Virus record (IMG/VR): IMGVR_UViG_3300042346_000266
Span: 1-64,000 of that record
DNA length: 64,000 bases
Direction: 5' to 3' (one strand)
DNA from: a virus
Part shown: in pieces, positions 3,702-57,813 of the stretch
Layout of the letters: each line of letters opens with the position of its first letter
Position numbering within the stretch: the stretch's first letter is position 1
Notes under the pieces: generated by a model
Told to the model about the DNA's origin: nothing
Databases searched by the model: none
What the model saw: only the letters and a program-made list of their open reading frames with translations
Position numbers and translations under genes: made by a program

Positions 3702-5570
3702 ATGAGTTTAACTTTAGATAAACAAATACTATCCGATATAACTGTTTATACAAAATATGCGAAGTATTTACCTGATAAGGAAAGGCGCGAAACATGGGAT
3801 GAATTAGTTACTAGAAACATGGAAATGCACACTTCCAAGTTTCCAAAAATGAAAGAATCAATTGAGCAAATTTACAAAGATTTTGTGTTTAATAAAAAAG
3901 TTTTACCATCAATGCGTAGTTTGCAATTTGGTGGTAAAGCTATTGATCTTAATAATGCTCGCATTTATAACTGCGCTTTTTTACCTATTGATAGTATTCA
4001 TAGTTTTTCTGAGACTATGTTCTTATTGCTTGGTGGAACCGGAGTTGGTTATTCGGTACAGCAACATCAAATTGAAAAACTTCCAGAAATACGTAAACCA
4101 AACTATGATCGCAAAAAAAGATACGTAGTACAGGATAGCATTATTGGGTGGGCAGATGCAATTAAGACATTGTTCAAGTCATATACAGGAGCTATGACTT
4201 CTCATATTGAATTTGATCTTTCTGACATTAGACAAAAAGGAGCATTGCTAGTTACAGCTGGCGGTAAAGCGCCGGGTCCGGAACCTCTAAGATTAGCTTT
4301 GGTAAAAATTGAAGCTATATTACGTGAAAAAGCGGATAGATCAAAGTTAACCGACATTGAATGTCATGATATTCAGTGCCATATTGCTGATGCGGTATTA
4401 GCAGGAGGTATTAGGCGAGCAGCAATGATTAGTTTATTTGATCTTGACAGCACAGCAATGCTCAATTGCAAAGCTGGAGAATGGTGGGAAAACAATCCTC
4501 AGAGAGGTAGAGCTAATAACTCTGTAGTATTATTAAGACATAAGATTGACAAGAAAACATTTGATAAAGTATGGGAGCGTATTGAAGCATCCGGATCAGG
4601 AGAACCTGGAATCTATCTAACCAATGATAAAGACTGGGGAACTAATCCTTGTTGTGAGATTGCATTACGTCCATATCAATTCTGTAATCTTACTGAAATC
4701 AATATGGCTGATATTGAAAGTCAAGAAGATTTTAATGCTAGAGCATCAGCTGCGGCATTTTTAGGCACATTGCAGGCGTCATACTCAGACTTTCATTACC
4801 TGCGTGATATATGGAAAAAGAATACAGAAAAAGATGCTTTATTAGGAGTATCAATGACAGGTATTGCATCTGAACCTAATTTAAAATTAAATTATGAAGA
4901 AGCTTCACAAGTTGTTAAAGACACAAACAATGTTATATCTGCCGCACTTGGTATCAACAAAGCAGCAAGAACAACTGCAGTTAAACCGGCTGGAACTACT
5001 AGTCTTGTACTTGGGACTTCTTCTGGTATTCATGCTTGGCACAATGATTATTACATTCGTCGCATGCGCTTAGGAAAAAATGAAGCTATTTATTCTTATC
5101 TTGCAATAAACCATCCAGAACTGATCGAAGATGAATACTTTAATCCAACGTTGCAGGCTGTTGTTTCAGTTCCACAGAAGGCACCAAATGGAGCTATAAC
5201 AAGACATGAGTCCACATTAGATCTTCTTGAAAGAGTTAAACTAATATCTAAAGATTGGGTAAAAAATGGACATATTAAAGGCAACAATACTCATAATGTT
5301 TCTTGTACAGTTTCTATTAGAGACGGGGAATGGAAAAATATTGGTGAATGGATGTGGGCAAATAAAGAATATTATAATGGGTTATCTGTATTACCTTACA
5401 ACGGTGGCACATACAAGCAAACTCCATTTGAGGACTGTACTAAAGAAGTATATGAAGAAATGATGTCTACATTAAAAGATGTTGATCTATCAAAAGTAAT
5501 TGAAGTTCAAGATAATACTAACTTTGCAGATTCAGCTGCTTGTGGCGGTGGTAATTGTGAAATAACATAA
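3702..5570 (+). CDS. nrdJ: Class II (adenosylcobalamin-dependent) ribonucleoside-triphosphate reductase
   Basis: A 622-residue monomeric-type reductase making dNTPs from NTPs with a B12 cofactor, independent of oxygen. Motifs include LPSMRSLQFGG, ARIYNCAFLP, ETMFLLLGGTGVGYSVQ, KPAGTTSLVLGTSSGIH and LPYNGGTY. Cys91 and Cys328 fit the redox pair and Cys317 the thiyl radical site; the 317/328 spacing equals that of Cys408/Cys419 in the Lactobacillus leichmannii enzyme. The C-terminal CGGGNC (Cys614, Cys619) matches the swinging dithiol. The usual NPCGE is NPCCE here, with an extra Cys318 next to the radical site. No intein is seen. The phage must rely on host B12. Confidence 0.93.
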   Translation: MSLTLDKQILSDITVYTKYAKYLPDKERRETWDELVTRNMEMHTSKFPKMKESIEQIYKDFVFNKKVLPSMRSLQFGGKAIDLNNARIYNCAFLPIDSIHSFSETMFLLLGGTGVGYSVQQHQIEKLPEIRKPNYDRKKRYVVQDSIIGWADAIKTLFKSYTGAMTSHIEFDLSDIRQKGALLVTAGGKAPGPEPLRLALVKIEAILREKADRSKLTDIECHDIQCHIADAVLAGGIRRAAMISLFDLDSTAMLNCKAGEWWENNPQRGRANNSVVLLRHKIDKKTFDKVWERIEASGSGEPGIYLTNDKDWGTNPCCEIALRPYQFCNLTEINMADIESQEDFNARASAAAFLGTLQASYSDFHYLRDIWKKNTEKDALLGVSMTGIASEPNLKLNYEEASQVVKDTNNVISAALGINKAARTTAVKPAGTTSLVLGTSSGIHAWHNDYYIRRMRLGKNEAIYSYLAINHPELIEDEYFNPTLQAVVSVPQKAPNGAITRHESTLDLLERVKLISKDWVKNGHIKGNNTHNVSCTVSIRDGEWKNIGEWMWANKEYYNGLSVLPYNGGTYKQTPFEDCTKEVYEEMMSTLKDVDLSKVIEVQDNTNFADSAACGGGNCEIT

Positions 5571-5846: not shown

Positions 5847-8800
5847 TTATCCCATCTTTCTTTTCTTTTTTTCTTCTCTACGCTTTTTAGCATCTTCTCT
5901 ACGTTTTAAAGCCGCTGCTCTTTTTATAGCTATTCTTTCTTTTAATGGCAATGCTCTAATAGAGTCTTTTGTTCTCTGTCTTGTTTCCTTAGCTTTTATT
6001 TTACCAGCTTCTTTTCTAAATGCTTTAGCTTCTTCTCTTATTTTAATATCACCAGCCGGTTCTTCTATACCAAGACTAATTGAATTCCATCCTAATAAAA
6101 GAGCAACTCTTTGCCATGCGTCATGTTGTGAATTCATTGCTTGCGAAACATTCTCAATTTTATTAACTAAACGGTCAGCTGGTGCTCCTATTCCAGCTTC
6201 TATTAGTTTACCAGTAACAGAATACATAGGACCTAAATGAACTCTACCATCTTGCATAACATCCCAACCGCGTTTTTCTATAAGATCTTTTTCAAACTTT
6301 GTTTGCTGTAATGCTGAGTAAACTTTACGCGCTTTTGATCCTATTGGAGGTGATATATTTAAACCTTCTAAAACAACTTTAGCATAGTCCGCTTTATAAT
6401 CTTTAGCTTTTTCATCTAGGTATTTAACGGCCATGTTTTTAAGCGTAGCTACTATTGCACCATAATATCCAGTACCACGTAAGATAGAATCTAATACACC
6501 ATTAGCAACATCAATAGCTCTGTCTTCTGTTGTTTTTGGTTTTGACTTTTTATCTTTTTCTTTGTATTTTTCTTCTTCTTCATCATCGCCAAAAATTACA
6601 GCAAATAAACCTTGTTGTAAAGCAGAGAACATTATATTCTGGATAGCTAAGTAGTAAATTATCTTTGAAACATGCGTTTTAGCATTACCCCTACCATTCT
6701 TTAAATCTAGAAACGATTTTTTAACAATACGTGATTGTTGCATTGCTGTATTTTGGAATGTTAATAATAACCTACCAGCTGGACTTGCTTGCTGTTGTGA
6801 TATATCTCTTGGATCACCTGACTGCTGTGTTTCATCTGATACTTTTGTAAAATCAGTCCATGCTTTATCTTCCGCTTCTTCCTTAGTTAATCCTTCTTTT
6901 AAATATGAATTAATTCTATTTCTATAAAATGGCGCGCCTCCAGAAGCAATAGCAAAACTATCCGCTAATTGTGTTGGAGCATAACCTTTCTTTAATAACC
7001 AGGATATAACAGCAGAAGCTTTGTTTTTACTACCTGCAGCAGCATTAGCTATTTCAGATGCCGCAACATCTTCTTTAAGGCCACCTCTTCTTTCCTTCAT
7101 TTTATCTGAATTCCATATAGTGGCAAAGTCTTCCCAATATTGTTTTTGATTAGCAAAAGCTTTACCTGCAGCAACAGGGTTATTGTCTCTTAAGTTTAGA
7201 AAGTTAACCGCTCCTAGTAATTGCAAGGATGCTGATCTAATATTCAAGAACATAATATTACCAGTAGAATTATTTACCCAGTTGCTCCAAGCATTAGTAC
7301 CCTTATCTTTTCCATGACTTCTATTTTTACCAGTTGTCATTCTATAAAGAACATCTTCAATAGCTTCTCTAGTATCTGTTCCATATAGAGCTTCTACTTT
7401 ATTCATATTAGGACCAACTAATCTACCCTGTTCCCATTTACCAAAGATTTCCTCGTAATTAGCAATGAACTCTTCCAAGAACTTCTTTCTACCATTACCT
7501 TCTGTAAGACCGTGTAGATCAGAAATGATTGTACTTGAATCCCAATTAGCCTCAGGCTTAATCCAGTCTTTACCTTGCTTACCAGTTATAAGCAATCCAT
7601 TTTTAAATGCAGTTAAATCAGGATCATTATTAACAAAGTTGCTTAGCATTCTTTGATCCTTCTTAGTTAACCCAGGTATCTCTACACCATTTGCATCCCA
7701 TATTGCAACACGTATTGCTTGGTCATATGTAAATTCGCTATTTGGTATTAGCTTTTCTAATTCTCCTTTTACAAACGGATATTCCTTTAATAATGCTTTA
7801 TAATCATTTTTAATTGATTGTCTAGCAGCATCTAATAAATCAGTTCCATTAGAATATGGATCAAGCAAAGCTTCTCTAAAAAACTTATATTGTTCCTCAC
7901 CTCTTTTTCCTTTACCCAAAAATTTATACAAAAGCAACTCAAAGTCAGCGGCAGAAGGCGGTACATACACGTCAAATATACCCTTACTAGCACCTCTTCT
8001 TTTAGCTACAATATCAGAATATGTAATCATAGGACCTATACCGGTATTCTGTGATATTATTTTATTAAACTGCCCATCTAATGAATTAAAGAATGCAAGT
8101 TTTTTCTGTTGCTTTTCTCCTTTTACATCAAAGTCTTCTAATATTGTTTTTACACCTTTTGAGTTTTTAAACTTATCGCCAGCAATATTAAAATCATTAA
8201 ATCCTTCGGAGAATTTACTAGTAACCCAATCGGCTTTAGCTTGATCCGTATTATCGTCTAATGTGTTTATATTGTTTGCAGGTATGTTAACCCCAACGTT
8301 TTGCAATAACACTTGTATAGCATTTCCAGATTCCGTTGGCTCTATTGTAACACCAAAACTGCTTTCTGGATCAGTATTATCAAAACCGTCTAATATGTCC
8401 TTGTTTTTTGCAACTTCTGCTTTTACGTCTGTATAATCAAATATAATGCCGTCAAGTTCAAGTTGCATTTGTTGCTTAAGGAATTCTGGTATTGTTAATT
8501 TTTTAACTTTACCTTCTTTGTCTTTATATGAAACTTTCTTTTTTATTTTAGCTAGTCTTTCGTCAATATCTATTACACTTATTTTCTTAGGTTTTGCAAC
8601 ATAAGAAGGTCTAGCCGCATTCAATACTGCTTTAACTGCTCTTGCTGATATTCTATTTCGTTTTAATAAAGAAGCTTTTCTAATTATTGTTAAGAGTTTC
8701 TTTGGTTTATCATGTATATCCACCGGTGATTTCTGATCCCAATTTGAAGCCATTTTCGGGAAACCAATAAAATACACATTGACATTCTTATCTTTATCCA

Positions 8801-52497: not shown

Positions 52498-52502
52498 ATA
52501 AA

Positions 52503-52556
52503 AAAGTGTGACGTTAGCCTACTATTAACCTAATTAAGTACCTAATGTCACACTTT
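52503..52556. repeat. Inverted repeat IR2
   Basis: AAAGTGTGACGTTAG and CTAATGTCACACTTT pair at 14 of 15 positions around an AT-rich centre containing CCTACTATTAACC. It follows the membrane-protein gene by a few bases, so it could also end transcription, though there is no T-run. Confidence 0.75.
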
Positions 52557-52582
52557 ATGATGGAATTTTAGTGCTATACACA

Positions 52583-52668
52583 CGGCCTGACCTTGAAATA
52601 GAGTCGGAAGAGTAGACTCCGACCTACTTTATAGTTAAAGTTGCTATACACAAACAGGTGAACGATCA
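52583..52668 (+). ncRNA. Candidate structured RNA element A
   Basis: Between two GCTATACAC copies: CCTGACCTTGAAATA, a stem GTCGGA/TCCGAC (52,603-52,623), then CAGGTGAAC. CCTG can pair with CAGG. The opening words closely match those at 56,880 (CCTGTACCCTTGAAATA ... CAGGTTAG), suggesting two copies of one RNA or DNA element. Confidence 0.4.
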
Positions 52669-52675
52669 AAATATA

Positions 52676-52735
52676 GTGTGACGTTAGCCCTTTACTTATT
52701 TACTTAATTAGCTTATGTCACATTTTATACTCAAA
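52676..52735. repeat. Inverted repeat IR3
   Basis: Left arm GTGTGACGTTAGCC as in IR2; right arm GCTTATGTCACATTTT. Slightly longer spacing than IR1 and IR2. Confidence 0.65.
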
Positions 52736-52749
52736 CTATCCTTATTTAC

Positions 52750-52787
52750 CGCGAGGGGGTACCCCGAGCGTGTATAGCATCCTCGCG
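52750..52787. repeat. GC-rich hairpin before P7
   Basis: Stem CGCGAGG/CCTCGCG (7 bp) enclosing the palindrome GGGGTACCCC and GTGTATAGCAT. Strikingly GC-rich in an AT-rich region. It ends nine bases before promoter P7; could be a regulator site, terminator or origin element. Confidence 0.6.
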
Positions 52788-52795
52788 TTACACTT

Positions 52796-52829
52796 TTACA
52801 GTCTAAATACGACCTCAATTTGATAATAT
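52796..52829 (+). promoter_or_regulatory. Promoter motif P7
   Basis: TTACAGTCTAAATACGA, then TTGATAATAT 24 bases after the first T, then TGTGTAAC. A full match to the consensus. Confidence 0.75.
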
Positions 52830-52835
52830 ATGTGT

Positions 52836-52950
52836 AACAAACAATAAATAATATGATTTAAAAGTGTCCTGAGTGTTTTATAACACACTGTAAATGAAGA
52901 TGTTAGGGGTTATACCCATCTAACTATATTTTCGATCAAATAAACAACCA
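52836..52950 (+). ncRNA. Candidate small RNA from P7
   Basis: No ORF beyond ATGATTTAA follows P7. The stretch has hairpins GTGTTTTATAACAC and GTTAGGGG...CCCATCTAAC. A strong promoter followed by structure and no gene, then another promoter, suggests a small non-coding RNA. Confidence 0.35.
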
Positions 52951-52955
52951 CCTGC

Positions 52956-52989
52956 TTACAGTCTGGTTACGACCTTAAAATGATAATAT
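52956..52989 (+). promoter_or_regulatory. Promoter motif P8
   Basis: TTACAGTCTGGTTACGA with ATGATAATAT at the family spacing and GTGTAAC downstream; precedes the 32-codon gene at 53,022. Confidence 0.7.
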
Positions 52990-53021
52990 AAGTGTAACAA
53001 TAACAAGTAAATACAACAATT

Positions 53022-53120
53022 ATGAGACAGTATTCCAATGCTATTAGGGTGATAGTATTAAAACTTAAAAAAGGCTTCTTAAATGGCGCTAAAAACGCTT
53101 CTATTGCGATGCGAAACTAA
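53022..53120 (+). CDS. 32-aa basic peptide gene
   Basis: MRQYSNAIRVIVLKLKKGFL then an Ala/Asn-rich end, stop TAA. It begins 33 bases after promoter P8. Amphipathic and basic with five Lys/Arg in the first 18 residues. Could be an antimicrobial-like or regulatory peptide; not recognised and possibly chance. Confidence 0.4.
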   Translation: MRQYSNAIRVIVLKLKKGFLNGAKNASIAMRN

Positions 53121-53146
53121 TTAATTAACAACTTAAATTAAAAATT

Positions 53147-56180: not shown

Positions 56181-56618
56181 ATGAACTTAACAAACTTAGT
56201 AGATGAATTAGGATTAACTGGCGGGTTCAGTTATAATATAACAACTGGTGAATCAACACCTTCCAATGGCTATATGGTTAGCTTACACGGCTATGAAATG
56301 GTTATACCATCTGATATATTCCATGCTAAAGATATTAGAGACTACGTAAGCAACAATGCAGCTCAATTATACAGAGAAGATCTGTTTATGGGCGGCTGGA
56401 TAAAAGATGATAAAGTATACTTAGATGTAAGTGTTAATATACTTGACCTTGAAACCGCAGTGTATACTGGTATGGTTAATAACCAACAAAGCATATATGA
56501 CGTTGTTAACAAAATATCATTAATGTTGCCATCCCCTCAGCGATCTGGTACTATGTCTCAAAATCGTACGTATAACGCAAGAAAAGCTAAAGACTTTGCA
56601 AATAATTATATACTATAA
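56181..56618 (+). CDS. 145-aa early protein
   Basis: Beta-rich first half (GGFSYNITTGESTPSNGYMV, SLHGYEMVIP) and a helical acidic second half. Shares one base with the KTSC gene, so coupled. Not recognised. Confidence 0.6.
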   Translation: MNLTNLVDELGLTGGFSYNITTGESTPSNGYMVSLHGYEMVIPSDIFHAKDIRDYVSNNAAQLYREDLFMGGWIKDDKVYLDVSVNILDLETAVYTGMVNNQQSIYDVVNKISLMLPSPQRSGTMSQNRTYNARKAKDFANNYIL

Positions 56619-56866
56619 TGGATTTAGATTTAGTTGAAAAATTGAATATTGAGAGTAGTTCAATATCTGAAGCATCATATTATCCTAATGTTAGAAGACT
56701 ATTTGTAACATTTAGAAGCGGGAAAGAATATGAATATTTTAATGTTCCTGAACATGTTGTTAATGAATTTAGATATGCACCATCTAAAGGCAAATTTCTA
56801 AAGAAACATATTATAGCTTGTTATAAATTTAAGAAAGTACAGTTGCTATACACTCCGGATTTGTAA
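56618..56866 (+). CDS. KTSC-domain protein
   Basis: 82 residues with the KTSC pattern: ESSSISEASYYPNVRRLFVT, FRSGKEYEYFNVPEHVVNEF, APSKGKFLKKHIIACYKF. KTSC domains are small beta domains in bacteria and phages, sometimes attached to RNA-related enzymes. Ends LLYTPDL; the LYT is encoded by the GCTATACAC word at 56,845. Confidence 0.75.
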   Translation: MDLDLVEKLNIESSSISEASYYPNVRRLFVTFRSGKEYEYFNVPEHVVNEFRYAPSKGKFLKKHIIACYKFKKVQLLYTPDL

Positions 56867-57048
56867 GCAACTATAATGACCTGTACCCTTGAAATACTCA
56901 TTCAGATAGCAGGTTAGTTCGAAATAAAAGGGTAATAGAATAAGAACAAAATGTTGATCATCTGGGGTTACGTAAAGTTTGCCGGAACGGATCCAAGGTT
57001 GTAACCAAAATGCGTATAAGAGAAAAACCGGTTCGCAGATCAACAAAA
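56867..57048 (+). ncRNA. Structured RNA region upstream of the tRNA-like element
   Basis: No gene. Helices visible: ACCTG/CAGGT (56,879/56,910) crossing TACCCTT/AAGGGTA (56,884/56,928), a pseudoknot-type arrangement; then TGTTGATC/GATCAACA (56,952/57,038, 8 bp) enclosing GGTTAC/GTAACC (56,966/57,001) and TGCG/CGCA (57,011/57,034), a three-way junction. Consistent with a folded RNA; family not recognised. Confidence 0.45.
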
Positions 57049-57138
57049 GAACTAAGCGTGGGCTAAATTGATACAGTGGCTTAAGTTATCATGGCATGCA
57101 ACCGACGGGTTAAGGGGTTCGATTCCCCTTTTAGTTCC
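57049..57138 (+). tRNA. tRNA-like element without clear anticodon arm
   Basis: A perfect T arm, AGGGG-TTCGATT-CCCCT (57,113-57,129), then TTTAGTT as 3' acceptor strand. It can pair with GGCTAAA (57,061, two G-U) followed by TT and a D arm GATA/TATC with a CAGTGG loop, or with AACTAAG (57,050). Where the anticodon arm should be there is only TGGCATGC and a stem AACC-GACG-GGTT. CCA is not fully encoded. Either a degenerate tRNA, a tRNA-like structure or an interrupted tRNA. Confidence 0.5.
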
Positions 57139-57151
57139 AAAATTTATTATT

Positions 57152-57310
57152 ATGAGTAGAACAGTAAAACAAGCATACAGAAAGTCTAGAGCTTTTGATA
57201 AGTCATGTAGAAATCATGGTAGTTGTGCATATTGTACAGGCAATAGATTACATAAACATAACAAAAAGTTAGAAGCAACAACTTACAGTCTAAACACGAT
57301 AGACGATTGA
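57152..57310 (+). CDS. 52-aa Cys-containing basic protein
   Basis: Starts MSRTVKQAYRKSRAFDKSCR, with CRNHGSCAYCTGNR, a possible zinc site, and a basic tail. I chose ATG 57,152 because an upstream TTG extension would run through the tRNA-like element. Its last codons (TTYSLNTIDD) and stop are part of promoter P11. The opening pattern is common in small phage proteins. Confidence 0.65.
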   Translation: MSRTVKQAYRKSRAFDKSCRNHGSCAYCTGNRLHKHNKKLEATTYSLNTIDD

Positions 57311-57316
57311 TAATAT
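57283..57316 (+). promoter_or_regulatory. Promoter motif P11
   Basis: TTACAGTCTAAACACGA and TTGATAATAT at spacing 24, then GTGTAACCAATTAAA. First two thirds lie in the upstream coding sequence. Precedes 57,340. Confidence 0.75.
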
Positions 57317-57339
57317 TAGTGTAACCAATTAAATTATAT

Positions 57340-57813
57340 ATGAATATATTTTATCTATCCACGGATCCTAAAAAAGCTGCTAAATACATGTATAACAAAC
57401 ATGTAGTAAAAATGATCCTTGAATCCGCACAATTATTATGTACCGCTCATGTAATATCTGACGGTCCAGATGCTAATGTGCCCTATAAAGTAACTCACAA
57501 AAATCATCCATCCGCTATATGGGCACGTGAGTCAAAATCTAATTACAAATGGTTGTATGACCATATGATTGCATTAGGTGAAGAATATACTAGACGTTAT
57601 GGCAAAAAACATTTAACAATATTAAAATGTAGTGGTGTACTTAGTAAAGTGCCGACTAATATAATTAAAGTTGATCCAACACCTATGCCTCAATGTATGC
57701 CTGACCAATATAAAGTTCCCGGTAATAGCGTTGAAGCATACTGGAATTATTACGAAGCAGAAAAAGTTAGTGTAAAAAATGCAAACGAAAATATAATAAC
57801 AAGGCCTAAATAA
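57340..57813 (+). CDS. Conserved phage protein (DPKKAA...KHVVKMILE family)
   Basis: 157 residues. STDPKKAAKYMYNKHVVKMI, ESAQLLCTAHVISDG, THKNHPSAIWARESKSNYKW and MPDQYKVPGNSVEAYWNYY are conserved words I recall from many T4-like and other phages. Conserved His, Lys, Glu and Trp suggest an enzyme. Function not known to me. First gene after P11. Confidence 0.75.
   Translation: MNIFYLSTDPKKAAKYMYNKHVVKMILESAQLLCTAHVISDGPDANVPYKVTHKNHPSAIWARESKSNYKWLYDHMIALGEEYTRRYGKKHLTILKCSGVLSKVPTNIIKVDPTPMPQCMPDQYKVPGNSVEAYWNYYEAEKVSVKNANENIITRPK

Follow-up and report, generated by a model that had tools for sequence, protein, structure and literature searches.

The RNA cassette and its genomic setting

The window analysed here is a 64,000-nucleotide stretch that makes up most of a 65,916-base viral record (IMG/VR IMGVR_UViG_3300042346_000266). 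It carries an RNA cassette at 56867-57138, which is flanked by a KTSC-domain open reading frame (ORF) on the 5' side (56618-56866) and by a 52-residue ORF on the 3' side (57152-57310), with a pyrimidine-dimer glycosylase gene further downstream (57340-57813). The closest match of the terminase was MW202828.1 (64%), followed by Flavobacterium, Cellulophaga, Tenacibaculum and Maribacter phages, and judging from this ranking the host of the virus is likely flavobacterial. The 5' border of the cassette is marked by the motif GCTATACAC within the end of the KTSC ORF (56845-56853, plus strand), which occurs eight times in the window against 0.44 expected (at 56845, 52221, 52573, 52643, 52770, 54258, 55418 and 59077) and is also found at RNA-cassette borders in several relatives. 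A promoter-like motif of the next gene, GATAATATTAGTGTAA, lies at 57309-57324 (plus strand), and at four related loci (L003, L032, L033 and L038) the RNA region runs up to a similar sequence without an intervening small ORF. Elsewhere in the window, a 649-base gap with no listed ORF (52498-53146) contains two copies of a AGTGTGACGTTAGCC...GTCACA stem, near 52505 and near 52677, together with two promoter-like motifs.

The cassette lies on the plus strand and consists of a 5' stretch (56867-56951), a 94-nt pseudoknotted module termed domain A (56952-57045), a 3-nt AAA spacer (57046-57048) and an 89-nt tRNA-like structure (TLS) that runs from G-1 to C73 (57049-57137). In the TLS, the 5' strand of the acceptor, AACTAAG (57050-57056, the last base of which could alternatively open the base of arm 1), pairs with TTTAGTT (57130-57136), and G-1 (57049) stands opposite the discriminator C73 (57137), which is followed by CAA instead of CCA (to 57140). 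The T arm, AGGGG-TTCGATT-CCCCT, occupies 57113-57129. Between acceptor and T arm, arm 1 (57056-57099) replaces the D and anticodon arms and is closed by GCG (57056-57058) pairing with TGC (57097-57099), with TGGG at 57059-57062; arm 2 is an AACC-GACG-GGTT hairpin (57100-57111). The first-pass annotation, made from the sequence alone, had proposed a perfect T arm and an acceptor, and both are present. It had also placed the AACC-GACG-GGTT stem where the anticodon arm should be; the hairpin is real, but it lies directly 5' of the T arm, which is the place of a variable arm. The D arm that it considered plausible was not recovered in canonical form, as 57056-57099 forms a single long, variable arm closed by a base of 3 bp.

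A T arm (5 bp, TTCR loop) combined with a 7-bp acceptor arose by chance in three of 3000 dinucleotide shuffles of 56867-57151. Fold energies were unremarkable for the whole cassette (z = -0.18), the TLS alone (z = -1.47), domain A (z = -0.89) and the 5' stretch (z = -0.90). Since the cassette is no more stable than usual, we rejected energy as evidence, and the case rests on comparison.

A TLS family in related viral contigs

We assembled relatives with exact patterns from the 3' part of the TLS (4 contigs), by collecting loci around the two downstream proteins (25 and 76) and by BLAST, and with two broader patterns, which yielded 18 contig stretches with domain A and 37 with a second TLS group; a search with the KTSC protein returned one locus only, which was already in the collection. 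The collected loci were then parsed for a TLS, requiring the GACG hairpin beside the T arm and a matching acceptor. This yielded 48 distinct sequences from related viral contigs, 16 with C73, as in the window, and 32 with A73. The tail after C73 was CAA in 10 and CTA in 6 of the 16. In the A73 group the acceptor is 6 bp long and no identity was recognised; the two groups differ mainly by a few inherited changes. The equivalent intergenic place in relatives is filled by differing structured modules, which in many of the closest relatives end in the same TLS. Six loci with a glycosylase 84-85% identical to that of the window (L041-L045 and L100) differ in their neighbours and lack such a TLS upstream of the glycosylase gene, and four others (L046-L049) carry other tRNA-like or tmRNA genes. 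The TLS pattern had no match in bacterial and archaeal genome contigs. In a BLAST search of 50,697 isolate phage records, the window region and the array at L135 were unmatched at the sensitivity used, and matches to the L003 and L158 regions were limited to short pieces lying in tRNA genes or in a hypothetical protein.

With the acceptor hardly varying, a first alignment of 11 TLS sequences showed next to no covariation, and more diverse sequences were therefore needed. Across the 48 sequences there is very little variation in the acceptor, the T arm or the GACG hairpin; the acceptor, arm 2, T arm and GACG loop were themselves search conditions, so that pairing counts for these parts are conditioned. 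Detection did not depend on pairing at the base of arm 1, whose three pairs form in 48/48, 46/48 and 38/48 sequences, with the pair types GC/AT/GT, TA/TG/CG and CG/AT/GC/TA/TG/GT, respectively, and with several types within each group. Double changes over all TLS pairs numbered 73 against a mean of 24.5, above each of 500 shuffles, and the same held within the C73 (13 vs 3.4) and A73 (12 vs 3.4) groups, each above all 500 shuffles, although these shuffles ignore the relatedness of the sequences. In 28 pairs of 8 phages, the 44 TLS positions compared were 96.1% identical, a value raised by the partly pattern-based selection of the copies, versus 52% at fourfold sites of the neighbouring gene. 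The difference points to purifying selection on the TLS.

The stretch between acceptor and arm 2 ranges from 12 to 75 nt across copies, and arm 1 is freely variable except for its 3-bp base. Some arms, including that of the window copy, were entered shortened in two of the analyses: no energy signal was found for arm 1 in the 48 sequences (mean z = -0.29), and an anticodon-like hairpin (5 bp, 7-nt loop, U33) occurred in 3 of the 48 arms. As arm 1 is no more stable than its shuffles, the "cargo" may be unstructured filler. Hairpin modules recur in arm 1, with M9 in 10 and M10 in 5 distinct contexts, and module M3 was found once inside an arm 1 and five times elsewhere. In most copies TGG or AGG follows the arm 1 base, which could stand in for the GG of the D loop.

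Upstream of the TLS, domain A was aligned in 10 and later in 17 distinct sequences. Its helices are Pa (56953-56959/57038-57044), Pb (56966-56971/57001-57006) and Pd (57011-57014/57034-57037), with a pseudoknot at 56962-56965/57028-57031. Overall, 94.7% of 357 cells pair, and double changes occur in 12 of the 21 pairs (40 double-change cells vs 13.4 in shuffles, sd 3.9, with slid controls reaching no more than 8). The fit is poorer for Pd, where 83.8% of cells pair. The YYGG/CCGG pseudoknot pairs in all 17 sequences and has an invariant 3' strand, so it is consistent with the data and not proven by them. Covariation with related phages was found in both the arm 1 base and domain A. A search with the domain A model R1 found one copy each in 10 of 14 records. 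The distance from the 3' end of domain A to the TLS, or to a tRNA-Leu-like element (L059 and L126), is 1-5 nt in 16 of 17 copies, the exception being L122. Domain A is absent at 2 of the 16 C73 TLSs (L005/L007 and L038), and none of the A73 loci searched carries it, the one match, at L159, being far below significance. Two loci show a second module of domain A-like layout 5' of domain A, with a terminal helix followed by CTGGG and an inner helix (L039, about 4550-4640; L003, about 6633-6722).

The 5' stretch of the cassette contains a candidate H-type pseudoknot (56879-56934; 56879-56883 with 56910-56914 and 56884-56890 with 56928-56934). These first 85 nt have no relatives among the fetched loci, and BLAST matches to other phages begin at 56939 onward (query position at least 73). 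The pseudoknot and three-way junction that the first-pass annotation described upstream are therefore backed only in domain A, where the helices Pa, Pb and Pd and the pseudoknot are supported in 17 sequences.

A self-cleaving or processing role for domain A is a guess drawn from its position. Gut-phage theta ribozymes are likewise pseudoknotted RNAs adjoining phage tRNAs; in the accessible text of PMC10879173 they are HDV-like and cut at the 3' end of the tRNA, whereas domain A lies at the 5' end, has one pseudoknot and matches no ribozyme family. Domain A did not fit an HDV-like or theta ribozyme, as cmscan of the region gave it no Rfam match at E up to 10 and its single pseudoknot is not the nested double form.

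A possible histidine-type identity and other tRNA-like RNAs

We further compared the two TLS groups at the -1 position and found G-1 in 16/16 C73 but only 6/32 A73 sequences (Fisher test, P = 3e-8, with sequences not independent); most of the C73 TLSs share an ancestor and thus do not represent 16 independent events. Bacterial histidine tRNAs are marked as such by G-1 and C73, and minihelices and microhelices bearing G-1:C73 are charged by HisRS, although the E. coli enzyme also uses the anticodon in vivo (PMC9976931, from the text available). The window element has both G-1 (G57049) and C73 (C57137) and lacks the anticodon GUG together with the anticodon arm. Because G-1:C73 is present and HisRS charges minihelices with this pair, charging of the C73 group by HisRS is plausible by analogy. 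At L003:6900-6990 we also observed a separate tRNA-like element with G-1:C73, with the acceptor TCGAGAT/ATCTCGA and a stem with a 4-nt loop at the anticodon place.

In several A73 relatives the TLS is followed by an RNA of 80-130 nt whose acceptor reads GGG...TCC-A. At two of nine loci tested, and at L052, such RNAs lack the message domain and scored 64.7-65.9 bits across the full length of the tmRNA model. The miniature tmRNAs, which measure 81-82 nt and keep G3.U70 and A73, lie at L052:2279-2360, L135:4406-4487 and L162:4417-4497. RNAs with a GGNNGTG acceptor, a variable middle and no anticodon arm were seen at L061:1617, L062:1951 and L063:1034, with more at L138, L139, L144, L145, L149, L152, L154, L158, L159 and L161; G3.U70 is present in most of them, not all. 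L046:4619-4935 and L048:4208-4523 are full phage tmRNAs whose predicted tag, at 33 residues, is unusually long. Five further tRNA-like genes have anticodon loops that by eye are not 7 nt (L003:2987-3059, L002:7719-7791, L046:3801-3873, L100:8084-8179 and L049:4730-4799), four of which ARAGORN reports as tRNA-??? or Stop, and these genes may be decayed or non-decoding. In the deposited circular phage genome MW202828.1 (L117:637-697), a tRNA-like element has a D-like arm and a T arm with no anticodon arm between them.

A possible non-decoding tRNA-like scaffold and its alternatives

The family, its conservation and covariation, the lack of an anticodon arm, the association of G-1 with C73 and the fixed spacing between domain A and TLS are established. 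On sequence comparison, the window element is a member of a conserved, covarying TLS family without an anticodon arm in related viral contigs, and the earlier description, a structured RNA cassette whose last part is tRNA-like but lacks an anticodon arm, is backed by relatives and covariation. Among the identities suggested at first pass, namely a tmRNA-like RNA, a viral tRNA-like RNA, an intron-interrupted tRNA and a decayed tRNA, the viral tRNA-like RNA fits best. With the anticodon arm replaced by a freely varying arm, the TLS should be unable to decode. We lean slightly towards a non-decoding tRNA chassis that would be processed, and perhaps histidylated, by host tRNA enzymes, and that would display or terminate exchangeable RNA modules. 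In this scheme the surrounding operon transcript would carry the cassette and host tRNA enzymes would recognise the TLS; RNase P would cut before G-1, and the 3' end would be trimmed and receive CCA. A stable RNA displaying the variable arm 1 would then be released, which would separate this arm from the upstream module or give that module a defined end, and in the window's group the G-1:C73 pair would make charging by HisRS likely. Beyond the anatomy and its conservation, we infer that the TLS is transcribed, processed, given a CCA end, charged and stable, and we infer its biological role.

The TLS could instead be a mere processing or protection handle, in which an RNase P cut at G-1 defines the 3' side of an upstream RNA (domain A, other modules or the operon mRNA). 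We regard this as unlikely but worth weighing, given the close spacing of domain A to the TLS in 16 of 17 copies and the modules that vary between phages while the TLS stays; however, domain A is missing from two C73 loci and from the A73 loci searched, and a handle leaves the covarying base of arm 1 and the G-1:C73 association unexplained. Somewhat less probable is a decoy that, charged or uncharged, ties up HisRS, EF-Tu, RNase P or a tRNA-directed defence enzyme of the host. Such a decoy would be immune to anticodon nucleases since it has no anticodon, and the TLS does keep the parts that those enzymes read (acceptor, T arm and G-1:C73) without the anticodon arm, but a decoy needs neither the upstream modules nor the variable arm.

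A neutral remnant of a decayed tRNA gene is very improbable: related phages do carry odd tRNAs with anticodon loops of the wrong size, but the conservation of the TLS above that of fourfold sites in the same 28 phage pairs, the covariation and the 48 distinct copies of the same organisation speak against decay. A tRNA gene interrupted by an intron, or a split gene, has even less in its favour. Of the features of a canonical tRNA (RF00005), the window shows a 7-bp acceptor and a T arm with a TTCRA loop and lacks an anticodon arm with a 7-nt loop, and its score stays below the covariance-model cut-off. ARAGORN found no tRNA or tmRNA in the window, Rfam returned nothing at its cut-offs, and with introns allowed ARAGORN found no gene in 56501-57400; neither a normal tRNA nor an intron model fits the element. 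In the 48 TLS extracts, standard settings gave only two ordinary tRNAs (Met and Gln), about 100 nt past the TLS start. The length is like that of a class II tRNA, and with introns allowed four of the 48 extracts gave a tRNA with a putative intron of 7-72 nt; against this, no intron family (group I or II) matched at E up to 10, the acceptor is closed within 89 nt, and arm 1 varies in length and sequence between phages.

A reduced tmRNA, which shares acceptor and T arm and the lack of an anticodon, is equally hard to credit despite the mini-tmRNAs that adjoin A73 TLSs in related phages, since at E up to 10 cmscan found only a 17-nt match of the T arm to tmRNA positions 347-363 (11.6 bits; T-arm scores for the element of 11.6 and 14.4 against a cut-off of 47), and the element has no tag reading frame, has C3-G70 rather than G3.U70, and has its pseudoknots, with domain A, outside the acceptor.

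No description of anticodon-less tRNA-like RNAs in phages was found in the open-access literature searched. Plant RNA viruses provide the best-known tRNA-like structures, and those of tobamoviruses have upstream pseudoknots. Like the histidine-type TLSs of tobamoviruses, the phage TLS is a viral tRNA mimic with an atypical -1/73 pair; it differs in coming from a DNA phage, in its ordinary acceptor with no pseudoknot, and in lacking the mimic of the His anticodon nucleotides that tobamoviral TLSs use (PMC9976931, as far as the accessible text goes). Stable RNA C (species 1 RNA) of phage T4 is also a small phage RNA beside tRNA genes that has a T arm end, a possible 7-bp acceptor and no anticodon, but its arms are different and its global minimum-energy fold departs from the local TLS reading. 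The T4 rnaC sequence (L119:1409-1547) has G3.U70 within this possible acceptor, and where an anticodon loop would be it has a hairpin whose loop is 6 nt long. The available part of PMC9697503 speaks here of "RNAs of yet unknown functions". The engineered tRNA scaffold, as described in the accessible sections of PMC3753655, keeps the acceptor, T and D arms and carries cargo in place of the anticodon stem-loop; it is man-made, and the phage TLS additionally lacks a normal D arm and has the GACG hairpin.

A broader and more tentative possibility is that flavobacterial phages use a natural non-decoding tRNA scaffold, with a fixed body of acceptor, T arm and GACG hairpin, modules that replace the anticodon arm or are strung upstream, and bodies with different charging identities (histidine-like G-1:C73, and alanine-like G3.U70 in the mini-tmRNAs of relatives, which have no message domain). 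These would form a set of aminoacylatable RNAs for infection that never decode.

Small RNAs that combine a tRNA body with changeable hairpins in place of the decoding part appear to form a conserved family in viruses of aquatic bacteria, and this replacement suggests that the tRNA shape serves a non-decoding use. tRNA finders miss a set of phage RNAs. The phage TLS is a natural counterpart of the laboratory tRNA scaffold that can be put to the test, and the family would give a comparative handle on stable phage non-coding RNAs beside tRNA genes, a question that dates from T4 RNA C and D. A conserved, covarying TLS family in DNA phages would widen the class of tRNA-like structures.
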